Origin: Actinomycetes bacterium
GTDB taxonomy: Bacteria > Actinomycetota > Acidimicrobiia > Acidimicrobiales > RAAP-2
Direction: 5' to 3'
DNA length: 39,047 bases
Assembly: GCA_021794655.1 (NCBI GenBank)
Contig: JAJYQJ010000137.1
Location: 1-39,047, forward strand
The position numbers were made by a program, and so were the translations under genes. Of this stretch, positions 10,630 through 17,592 are shown piece by piece. How positions within the stretch are numbered: position 1 is the first letter of the stretch; every line of letters starts with the position of its first letter. The notes under the pieces were generated by a model that was not told the DNA's origin, made no database searches, and worked only from the letters and a program-made list of their open reading frames with translations.

Positions 10630-11838
10630 ATGGCACGTGTGCAGTTGAAGAACGCATCCAAACAGTACGGGAAGGGCCAACCCGCAGCGGTAGATGGTAT
10701 CGATATCGCTATCGACGAGGGTGAGTTCGTCGTCTTGCTCGGACCGTCCGGCTGCGGGAAGACGACCGCGCTACGGATGATCGCCGGCCTCGAGGCGCCG
10801 AGCGGCGGCGAGGTGTGGTTCGACGACCGCCTCGTCAACGCCGATCCTCCCGATCGCCGAAACGTCGGCATGGTCTTCCAGAACTACGCCCTCTATCCCC
10901 ACATGACGGTCGATCAGAACCTCTCGTTCGGCCTCAAGGCCGCGCGTACACCAAAGGCCGACGTTCGCCGCCGGGTTCGCGAGGTCGCTGATCTCCTCGG
11001 ACTCGACGGTTACCTTCAACGACGTCCAAAGGAGCTCTCCGGCGGCCAGCGCCAGCGCGTCGCGTTGGGTCGCTCCCTTATGCGCCGGCCGTCGGTCTTC
11101 TTGATGGATGAGCCGCTCTCGAACCTCGATGCGAACCTGCGCGAGCAGATGCGCATCGAGCTAGCCCGCCTACACGCTCGCCTCGGCATCACGACGGTAT
11201 ATGTGACCCACGACCAGAACGAGGCGCTAACGCTCGCCGACCGCGTCGTCGTCATGGAGGCTGGGACGATCCGCCAGTGCGACACACCGAGCGAGGTCTA
11301 CAACCATCCCGCAGACACCTTCGTCGCAGGGTTCATCGGCTCACCGGGGATGAACCTGTGGACCGCGTCCTGGGAGGACGACGGAGAGTCGGTGTGGCTC
11401 GGCGAGCGCGCGCTGCGCTTGCCACGCACCTTCCTCCCTGCCCTCGAGGAACTCGGCCGAACGGTCACCGTAGGGATCCGCCCCGAACATCTCGCGGTCT
11501 CAAGAACTCGATTCGACACCGAAGTTAACCCTGCGTTCGCCAATGGGATGGCCAATGGGGTGGCCCATGAGGTGAGCTGTGAAGTGAGCTGTGAAGTGAG
11601 CTGTGAAGTCGAGCTCCTCGAACAGCTCGGGAGCCACACCCAGCTCCATGCGCGAGTAACGCTATCGGAAGGGACGGCTGCCCGGCTCGTCGCGCGCCTC
11701 GACGTCGGGGTGGAGGCGGCCGTAGGGGAGCAGCTCTCGCTCACGGCACGGCCTCGAGCTGTACATCTATTCGACGCCGATACGACCAAACGAGTCGACC
11801 TCAATCCGCGCTACTTCGCGCCTCAACTCGTTCGATGA
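10630..11838 (+). CDS. ABC transporter ATP-binding protein, MalK/MsmK/UgpC type
   Basis: 402 aa. Walker A is GPSGCGKTT, the Q-loop is QNYALYPHM, the signature is LSGGQRQR, Walker B is VFLMDEPLSNLD, and the switch His is in VYVTHDQNEA. The C-terminal part (from about 240) is the OB/TOBE regulatory domain of carbohydrate importers. That domain contains an odd (V-S-C-E)x3 stretch at about 315-326 made by a 12-bp minisatellite. The start is ATG with GGAG 4 nt upstream; the stop overlaps the next permease as ATGA. It powers the importer encoded by the next three genes. Confidence 0.92.
   Translation: MARVQLKNASKQYGKGQPAAVDGIDIAIDEGEFVVLLGPSGCGKTTALRMIAGLEAPSGGEVWFDDRLVNADPPDRRNVGMVFQNYALYPHMTVDQNLSFGLKAARTPKADVRRRVREVADLLGLDGYLQRRPKELSGGQRQRVALGRSLMRRPSVFLMDEPLSNLDANLREQMRIELARLHARLGITTVYVTHDQNEALTLADRVVVMEAGTIRQCDTPSEVYNHPADTFVAGFIGSPGMNLWTASWEDDGESVWLGERALRLPRTFLPALEELGRTVTVGIRPEHLAVSRTRFDTEVNPAFANGMANGVAHEVSCEVSCEVSCEVELLEQLGSHTQLHARVTLSEGTAARLVARLDVGVEAAVGEQLSLTARPRAVHLFDADTTKRVDLNPRYFAPQLVR
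11542..11607 (+). repeat. Compound 12-bp minisatellite inside the ABC ATPase gene
   Basis: Two copies of AATGGG[AG]TGGCC (11542-11553, 11554-11565) are followed, after 6 bp, by three exact copies of GTGAGCTGTGAA (11572-11607). The unit of 4 codons keeps the reading frame. It adds low-complexity sequence to the regulatory domain. Confidence 0.85.
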
Positions 11839-15190: not shown

Positions 15191-15946
15191 GTGGCGGTTC
15201 TCGCGACCCCAGACGACGTCGGGCGCTCCGCGAGACGCAGTTCTTGCGTCCCGTCGTCGTCAAGGGCTGAGGTGCTCGTGGTCGAGGACGACCACGGATT
15301 CGCCCAGATCCTACGCCGCCGGCTCACTGAAGAGGGCTTCGGTGTCCACGTGGCCTCAGACGGCGAAGCCGCTCTCGATCGTATCTCTCGAACCCGTTTC
15401 GACGTCGTCGTCCTCGACCTGCTCCTCCCCGGCGTCGACGGGTTCGAGGTCTGCCGTAGGCTCCGCGAGAACCAGCGCTGGGTGCCGGTGGTGATGGTGA
15501 CCGCTCTCGGAGGGATCGACGAGCGGATGCGCGGATTCGAACTCGGGGCGGAGGACTACCTCGTAAAACCCTTCGTCTTGGAAGAGCTCGTCGCACGGCT
15601 CCATGTCGTCTTGCGGCGCCACCAGGGACTCACCCAGGCGTTTTTGACCGCCGGAGATCTCCGGCTCGACTTGATGAGTCATCGAGCGTGGCGGGGTGAC
15701 GTCGCACTCGATCTAGCGCGGAGGGAGTTCGACTTACTCGAGCTACTCGTGCGCCACGCCGATATCGTCGTCACCCGCCAGACGATCCTGATCACCGTGT
15801 GGGGACGCGACGCCGCCGTCTCGAAGAACGTCGTAGACCAGTACGTAAACCACTTACGCAAAAAGGTGGACCGCCCCTTTGGTCGGGCGGACATCGAGAC
15901 CGTCTACGGGGTGGGGTGGCGACTGCGGACCGACGAAGCCCGGTGA
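15191..15946 (+). CDS. OmpR-family response regulator
   Basis: 251 aa from the GTG at 15191, 2 nt after the binding-protein stop. The receiver domain has VLVVEDD, phospho-acceptor D76 in VVLDLLLPG, the T in VMVTAL and the switch K in DYLVKPF. The C-terminal winged helix ends in the typical ETVYGVGWRLR. The roughly 27 residues before VLVVEDD are atypical, so a GTG at 15272 (224 aa) is an alternative start. Next to an ABC importer, it probably adjusts transporter or carbohydrate gene expression (inference). Confidence 0.9.
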   Translation: MAVLATPDDVGRSARRSSCVPSSSRAEVLVVEDDHGFAQILRRRLTEEGFGVHVASDGEAALDRISRTRFDVVVLDLLLPGVDGFEVCRRLRENQRWVPVVMVTALGGIDERMRGFELGAEDYLVKPFVLEELVARLHVVLRRHQGLTQAFLTAGDLRLDLMSHRAWRGDVALDLARREFDLLELLVRHADIVVTRQTILITVWGRDAAVSKNVVDQYVNHLRKKVDRPFGRADIETVYGVGWRLRTDEAR

Positions 15947-16025
15947 ATGGCGATTGGCCAATGGTGAATAGCGAACGGCGAATGGTGAATGGTGAATAGC
16001 GAACGGCGAATGGTGAATGGTGAAT
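15942..16025 (+). repeat. Heptanucleotide tandem array (12 x GGYGAAT-like) at the regulator-kinase junction
   Basis: Twelve consecutive 7-mers close to GGTGAAT/GGCGAAT/AGCGAAC fill the whole gap between the response-regulator stop and the kinase start. A 28-bp higher-order unit (AGCGAAC-GGCGAAT-GGTGAAT-GGTGAAT) occurs twice in tandem. Each GGTGAAT followed by GG contains TGAATG, a stop fused to a start. Both the regulator stop and the kinase start lie in such a TGAATGGCG word, so the array looks like an expansion of an original stop-start junction. Confidence 0.9.
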
Positions 16026-17505
16026 GGCGCTCCGCCTCCGCTTCGCGCTGGTGACGGCTGCACTCGTCGCAGTCGTCGTCGGTTGCGGGAGCGTCGCGTT
16101 CGCTCTCTCCATGTCCGCGAGCACGCGCTCGACTGTTGAATACGCTATGCGGGGGCGAGCGAGGAGGGTAGGCGAGGAACTTAGCGCCCACCTCCTGCCG
16201 CTGCCGGTTGGCACCGCCGGACGCACGCCGAGCTTCGACCAGAGTATGGTACAGGTCATCGCAGGGTCGGACGAGCTCGTTTACACTACGGCTGCAGCAG
16301 GTTCCTCCCCGCTCATCTCCGCTCGCCAGATCGCACACGCACGCACGACCCCGGTGTGGGTAGAGGAGCGCAGGACCGCCTGGGACGGTCCTCATCTTGT
16401 CCTAGCCGAGGCGGCAGGAGGAAGGACTACTCGAGCTCATAACGCGTACGTCGTCGTCGTAGGCGCGTCCCTCGATCAGCTCGTCGACACGACGCACCGC
16501 GTGGATCTCGTGCTCGAGCTCGCTGGGCCGCTCGCCGTTCTCGCGTGCGCAGCGGGGGCCTGGTTCCTCGCCGGCAGGGCTCTGAGGCCGGTGGACCTGC
16601 TCCGTCGTCAAGTGCAAGATATCTCGACGGGCGATCTACGGGGACGCCTCGTCGATCCAGGAACCCGGGACGAACTCGCGGCGCTCGCCGACACCTTTAA
16701 CGACCTTCTCGACCGCCTCAGTGAGTCTATCGATCACGAGCGCGAGTTCGTCGCGGCGGCGAGCCACGAGCTGCGAACCCCGCTCGCGGCGCTCAGCGCG
16801 GAGTTGGAGTTGGCCCTCCGTGGGACTTCGAACCGTGCGACTTCGAACCGTGCGGCGTCGAACAGTGCGGCGTCGAAGGCGAGAGACGTGGCGGAGGTTA
16901 CGGACGTTAAGGAGGTCACGGAGCGTCTCGCGAGCCGGGTAGCCGAGCTGGTGCGCCTAGCTGACGGCCTGCTCACTCTCGCACAAACCCAGGATCGCTC
17001 TGTGCTGATGCACGTCGAGCGACAGTTGCTCGAGCCGCTCGTCGCCGAGTCGCTAGCGAACTATCGAGCAGTGGCTGCTCGCAACGGAGTGACGATGGTT
17101 CTCGACGCGGAGCCGTCCGTCGTCGCAGCGGTAGACGCGATCTGTTTTCGCGAAGTCGTGGAGAATCTCGTCGACAACGCGGTCCGCTACAGTCCGAGCG
17201 GTGCGTTCGTCGACGTAGGGCTTTACCAGGTCGCCGGCACGGCGGTTCTGGAGGTGCGCGACAACGGGCCTGGGTTCCCGACCGCCTTCATTCCCCGAGC
17301 GTTCGAACGGTTCTCACGGGCCGACCCGTCGCGGTCACGAGATGAAGGTGGCGCGGGCCTCGGCCTCGCGATCGTTCAGACGATCGTCACGGCGCTTGGC
17401 GGGACTGTAACGCTTTCCAACAACACCCCCGGGCGAGGTGCACTCGTGACGGTCACGCTACCCGTCCCGGCCGGCGCGGCACACACAAGCCGCGATCCGC
17501 TCTAG
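16024..17505 (+). CDS. Sensor histidine kinase
   Basis: 493 aa. TM1 is at about 7-29, followed by an extracytoplasmic sensor of about 130 residues, TM2 at about 163-183 and HAMP at about 184-236. The DHp H-box is ASHELRTPLAAL with the phosphorylated H248. The ATPase domain has an N box (ENLVDNAVRYSPSG), DNGPGFP and GAGLGLAIV. ATG 16024 is fixed by an in-frame TGA immediately before it, in the heptamer array. The loop between the two DHp helices is lengthened by 15-bp repeats (16822-16877). It is the cognate partner of the preceding regulator. The ligand is unknown; a sugar or the binding protein is plausible from context. Confidence 0.92.
   Translation: MALRLRFALVTAALVAVVVGCGSVAFALSMSASTRSTVEYAMRGRARRVGEELSAHLLPLPVGTAGRTPSFDQSMVQVIAGSDELVYTTAAAGSSPLISARQIAHARTTPVWVEERRTAWDGPHLVLAEAAGGRTTRAHNAYVVVVGASLDQLVDTTHRVDLVLELAGPLAVLACAAGAWFLAGRALRPVDLLRRQVQDISTGDLRGRLVDPGTRDELAALADTFNDLLDRLSESIDHEREFVAAASHELRTPLAALSAELELALRGTSNRATSNRAASNSAASKARDVAEVTDVKEVTERLASRVAELVRLADGLLTLAQTQDRSVLMHVERQLLEPLVAESLANYRAVAARNGVTMVLDAEPSVVAAVDAICFREVVENLVDNAVRYSPSGAFVDVGLYQVAGTAVLEVRDNGPGFPTAFIPRAFERFSRADPSRSRDEGGAGLGLAIVQTIVTALGGTVTLSNNTPGRGALVTVTLPVPAGAAHTSRDPL
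16822..16877 (+). repeat. 15-bp minisatellite in the kinase DHp hairpin
   Basis: Units GGGACTTCGAACCGT, GCGACTTCGAACCGT and GCGGCGTCGAACAGT, then a partial fourth, encode repeated [GA]-[TA]-S-N-[RS]. The unit is 5 codons, so copy changes keep the frame. Confidence 0.85.
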
Positions 17506-17520: not shown

Positions 17521-17592
17521 ACCGAAGGCGATCCCGAAGGCGATCCCGAAGGCGGTCCCGAAGGCGATACCGAAGGCGATACCGAAAGCGGT
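17521..17592. repeat. Six 12-bp repeats between convergent genes
   Basis: Six tandem copies of [AC]CCGAAGGCG[AG]T run from 17521 to 17592 between the kinase stop (17505) and the transketolase stop (17603). They are noncoding. No hairpin with a T tract was seen. Confidence 0.85.

Follow-up and report, generated by a model that had tools for sequence, protein, structure and literature searches.

Heptameric repeats are reported to be over-represented in many bacterial genomes, where polymerase slippage has been proposed as their cause and no function has been shown (PMC4692102). Among the heptameric simple sequence repeats (SSRs) described so far are GGGAATC in Xanthomonas and GGGGA(C/T)T in Nostoc, including an array of 26 units that separates pecE from pecF (PMC4692102). 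TAACTGA heptamers that precede start codons have been put forward as regulators of translation (PMC4679880), and in Haemophilus the transcription of hmw1A is tuned by the number of heptamers (PMC8262952).

The array considered here lies in a 39,047-nucleotide stretch of DNA (contig JAJYQJ010000137.1 of assembly GCA_021794655.1, Actinomycetes bacterium), the whole of which is referred to as the window, and it is a further instance beside these known bacterial heptameric repeats. It shares with the SSRs of Xanthomonas and Nostoc a 7-bp period, an intergenic and possibly within-operon position, degenerate units and the absence of a shown function; those repeats, however, are G-quadruplex formers present in many copies per genome, whereas the window holds a single array of another unit (PMC4692102). 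The TAACTGA repeats of Beggiatoaceae, Cyanobacteria and Bacteroidetes are comparable in being stop-codon heptamers, often placed just before a start codon and patchily distributed across phyla, but differ in their unit and in number, a single genome containing 169 sets of them where the window has one array (PMC4679880). Similarly, the ATCTTTC repeats of hmw1A and hmw2A in Haemophilus influenzae have a 7-bp period and precede a gene without entering its reading frame; they lie between promoters and their tuning by copy number is proven (PMC8262952), whereas the present array occupies a translational junction. A literature search on the unit sequence returned no paper visibly about bacterial repeats.

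The array and its flanking genes

The array separates the two genes of a two-component system, and the relevant features are as follows.

15191 to 15946, + strand: OmpR/PhoB-type response regulator of 251 amino acids (Pfam Response_reg and Trans_reg_C), with its TGA (15944-15946) inside unit 1
15942 to 16025, + strand: heptamer array of 12 RGYGAAY units (sequence, TRF, shuffles)
15942 to 15952, + strand: left edge GGTGAATGGCG, the regulator stop followed directly by ATG (sequence)
16012 to 16016, + strand: GGTGA, Shine-Dalgarno-like (SD-like), 7 nt upstream of the kinase ATG, complementary to UCACC at the 3' end of the 16S rRNA
16019 to 16029, + strand: right edge GGTGAATGGCG, an in-frame TGA abutting the kinase ATG (sequence)
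16024 to 17505, + strand: sensor histidine kinase of 493 amino acids (Pfam HAMP, HisKA and HATPase_c; N-terminus alignment)

Read directly from the sequence, 12 degenerate heptamers of consensus RGYGAAY fill positions 15942-16025, in the order GGTGAAT, GGCGATT, GGCCAAT, GGTGAAT, AGCGAAC, GGCGAAT, GGTGAAT, GGTGAAT, AGCGAAC, GGCGAAT, GGTGAAT, GGTGAAT, followed by a partial 13th unit, GGCG, that reaches 16029; this copy number is that of the assembly, a 155-contig draft of one genome. Three unit types fall under the consensus (GGTGAAT, GGCGAAT and AGCGAAC), and only units 2 and 3 depart from it. The hexamer TGAATG occurs four times in the 12 units (at 15944, 15986, 16014 and 16021), while units 4 and 8 continue as TGAATA. 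The sequence-only reading had described twelve heptamers, several with TGAATG, running from the regulator stop to the kinase start, with the same sequence at both edges, and both points hold: the 77 bp between the regulator TGA (15944-15946) and the kinase ATG (16024-16026) equal 11 × 7, and TGAATGGCG is present at 15944-15952 and again at 16021-16029, within an identical 11-bp GGTGAATGGCG that extends from 15942 to 15952 on the left and from 16019 to 16029 on the right.

At period 7, TRF reported 12.1 copies with 76% matches and a score of 93; period 28 scored better (3.0 copies, 91%, score 135) because units 4-7 are duplicated exactly, over 28 bp, as units 8-11. With three units as the pattern and at most two mismatches allowed, 11 matches were observed against about 0.01 expected by chance from dinucleotide shuffles of the window. 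The units are therefore tandem beyond chance by TRF, by direct reading and by shuffling, and their position in the spacer, together with the alignment of both protein ends with relatives, places them outside conserved coding sequence. The array is a real yet fairly ordinary bacterial microsatellite, an intergenic heptameric simple repeat. Its RNA showed no structure beyond chance (fold z +1.46), no inverted (reverse-complement) partner was found near it, and an Rfam search of the window gave no match.

The junction in relatives

Relatives of the kinase were obtained by a protein search in 61 genomes, which returned no genome of the same genus; the closest belong to the same family at 48% identity, and even the nearest relatives are distant, at 45-55% protein identity. 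The regulator gene lies upstream of the kinase at the relatives' loci as well, and the stop of the regulator and the start of the kinase are separated by gaps of 0, 6, 2, 1, 1 and -1 bases in the six best matches. In the closest of them (L007) the junction reads GCTCGT TAG GTG CCG ATC CGC, the window counterpart being GCCCGG TGA, then 77 bp, then ATG GCG CTC CGC. The C-terminus of the regulator matches that of L007 to the last residue in the alignment, and the kinase N-terminus (MALRLRFALV) aligns from residue 1 with the MPIRLRLALV of the relatives. Since the regulators end and the kinases begin at the same residues, the array is inserted exactly between stop and start. Judged by these sequences, the insertion is confined to the window lineage among those sampled. 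No relatives of the regulator were found in viral contigs, and plasmids gave weak matches only, whether the array or the regulator-kinase pair was compared.

RGYGAAY arrays elsewhere

The RGYGAAY class is represented by at least 118 stretches in GTDB genomes of many phyla. Viral contigs contain 90 such stretches, compared with 25 for a reversed and 27 for a shuffled control unit. Some Mesorhizobium genomes and one Anabaena genome contain many such arrays, with zero for the reversed pattern. Either exchange or repeated independent origins of a unit prone to slippage could explain this wide spread.

Unit number varies at a few of these loci. At a phage portal/protease-like junction with identical 250-bp flanks (L220 and L238), 24 units were counted on one contig and 25 on the other, a one-unit difference between metagenome contigs that may be an assembly effect; the homologous loci L052 and L155 have 12 and 8 units, and many further pairs with identical flanks have equal numbers.

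A preference of the class for junctions was considered and rejected: tight placement between co-directional genes was recorded for 12 of 176 assessable arrays and for 2 of 46 control arrays, which is no clear enrichment in a count biased by the simple ORF caller. As RGYGAAY arrays occur in many phyla and mostly off junctions, the unit itself is no dedicated junction device. The stop-start arrangement of the window nevertheless recurs, without defining the class, at L046, L070, L076, L091, L160 and L220. These six loci share with the window the unit class and the position at a stop-start junction of two genes, but belong to unrelated organisms and genes, and some of their arrays occur in inverted pairs. 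With neighbours judged by eye, the array lies between RNase Y-like and YmdB-like genes at L076, follows a LepA-like gene at L091 and is located at a portal/head-morphogenesis-like pair at L160.

At L046:1097-1547 and L089:7512-7955 two inverted RGYGAAY arrays, spaced about 420 bp from each other, flank a gene in an arrangement that looks like a small element. We take this gene to be 23S_rRNA_IVP-like, a four-helix bundle. A general link between the array and this gene was discarded, as the two are adjacent at few loci only (L046, L089 and L390). In four genomes of one Mesorhizobium-like genus (L391, L392, L393 and L394), arrays at the terminase-portal junction face inverted copies at the start of a portal-like gene; their units differ by genome, being AGCGAAT in two and 8-mers such as GGGCAGTA in the others. 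Both of the arrays submitted to folding gave long hairpins, which suggests that the arms change together.

Translation across the junction

The in-frame TGA of the last unit directly abuts the kinase ATG, the regulator stop lies within unit 1, and each of its three forward frames contains stops. Because the kinase frame is set by its own ATG, behind a TGA, and the regulator is already terminated in unit 1, a change in heptamer number cannot fuse, truncate, extend or shift either protein. The sequence-only reading had considered a phase-variation device possible, as each gain or loss would move the two genes in phase and spacing; the layout rules out on/off switching of the kinase by frame shift.

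Pairing with the anti-SD, computed with the universal 16S 3' end, gave a duplex energy of -7.4 kcal/mol at the ATG at 16024, the strongest match among the seven in-array ATGs, the remaining six ranging from -2.3 to -5.8 kcal/mol. In a sample from the source genome, 28% of predicted starts attained this level, compared with 12% of background positions. Mini-ORFs of 5-40 codons begin at the other in-array ATGs.

The kinase is probably translated from the ATG at 16024, a predicted start codon, through predicted use of the local GGTGA, with some termination-reinitiation over the 77-nt spacer. The array would be tolerated through a unit that brings along a stop, a start and bases resembling a ribosome-binding site (GGTGA-ATG): because the unit carries these signals, the regulator stop in unit 1 and the kinase start at TGA|ATG, with GGTGA 7 nt upstream, are kept at any copy number, which shows why such a unit can grow at a junction harmlessly. 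Any effect of copy number on kinase yield is expected to be graded, or there may be none, and a mild influence on coupling distance or on ribosome binding through GGTGA is possible. The most economical reading is that the spacer is tolerated, with initiation taking place locally and coupling perhaps weakened.

Origin of the array and alternative explanations

The best account of the array, to which we assign a probability of about 0.7, is that a tight stop-start junction was expanded in this lineage by copying of the original junction. The sequence-only reading had likewise proposed a copied original, and the tight gaps of the six best matches, the aligned protein ends and an edge GGTGAATGGCG of about 1.6 units give the array the appearance of a multiplied stop-start junction. 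The ancestor would have been a tight, translationally coupled regulator-kinase junction with CCCGGTGA directly followed by ATGGCGCTCCGC, whose exact bases, the relatives being distant, can only be inferred. The ancestral GGTGAATGGCG would comprise about 1.6 heptamer copies, one full unit and the start of the next, enough to seed slippage. Growth to 12 units may then have proceeded by replication slippage and, later, by the segmental duplication seen in the exact 28-bp block, with most units presumably diversifying through transitions. The observed layout and the near-empty junctions of the relatives carry the case for local expansion, slippage being its presumed mechanism. The locus mainly illustrates the origin of spacers between coupled genes, and offers a clean example, with array-free relatives, of a microsatellite arising at a tight stop-start junction.

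Since RGYGAAY arrays are common in phyla unrelated to this one, the junction might instead have been seeded by an incoming array through recombination. Import of a mobile or dispersed heptamer element would accord with the breadth of the class and with the many copies in several Mesorhizobium genomes and one Anabaena genome, where the reversed-pattern control gave none; we consider it improbable. The search for other (GGYGAAT)n arrays that the sequence-only reading had suggested found no second array in the 2.7 Mb draft of the source genome, and such arrays were likewise absent from the 295 other genomes of the class sample (296 in total), so that local birth is favoured over a dispersed element. 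Both array edges, moreover, merge with the junction GGTGAATGGCG, and the source genome yielded neither an inverted partner nor a 23S_rRNA_IVP gene, although the search for this family gave no match in control genomes either. A dispersed family of the STRR or TAACTGA type was excluded, one array in 2.7 Mb being unlike many scattered copies, and an inverted heptamer array element, with or without the 23S_rRNA_IVP gene, was set aside with no reverse-complement array nearby. The array could also be read as a set of sites bound by the regulator or by some other protein with affinity for DNA or RNA, since its regular repeats adjoin the regulator gene and a protein that binds the TAACTGA repeats of Beggiatoaceae has been suggested (PMC4679880). 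This is very unlikely, given that the source genome has no further copies and the relatives lack the array. Direct repeats recognised by OmpR/PhoB-type regulators are spaced about 11 bp apart, which a 7-bp period does not fit.

Selection of a population-variable heptamer number for setting the kinase-to-regulator ratio, by way of the spacing, the SD context or a relay of reinitiation at mini-ORFs, would make the array a contingency or tuning locus, a natural knob on the two-component system if copy number set kinase yield. Its position between stop and start is suggestive, as are the stop, start and SD-like bases in each GGTGAATG unit, the mini-ORFs of 5-40 codons that could hand ribosomes on and the differing RGYGAAY copy numbers at other loci; the 7-bp repeat number tunes hmw1A in Haemophilus influenzae, though at the promoter (PMC8262952). 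We nonetheless judge such a function unlikely, as the layout makes a frame effect impossible and the array is degenerate, with TGAATG just 4 times in 12 units. Slippage is generally rarer in impure repeats, and phase variation usually targets surface antigens, not regulator-kinase pairs. A broader and quite speculative proposal would have RGYGAAY as a translation-competent repeat that grows at operon junctions without breaking genes, acting as a copy-number-dependent termination-reinitiation relay that sets how much of one neighbouring product is made relative to the other, here the kinase relative to the regulator. Its premise is that the GGTGAATG unit combines SD-like GGTGA with a stop and a start, so that arrays can grow at operon junctions with both genes intact.

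Other repeats in the window

General repeat-proneness of the source genome was discarded as an explanation, its tandem-repeat density not being above that of all sampled relatives. The kinase gene has separate tandem arrays upstream, within and downstream. Four 15-bp repeats at 16818-16877, inside the gene, produce an insertion of about 21 residues just past the first helix of the HisKA domain, absent from six relatives in the alignment, and a 12-bp repeat, CCGAAGGCGATC, directly follows the kinase stop at 17522-17590 (5.8 copies, TRF score 110). Neighbouring 12-bp repeats, GCCAATGGGATG-like and TGAAGTGAGCTG, occur at 11539-11615. A degenerate long repeat of about 120-138 bp (10 copies by TRF) spans 176-1594 and probably forms part of a gene for a repetitive protein at the edge of the window.
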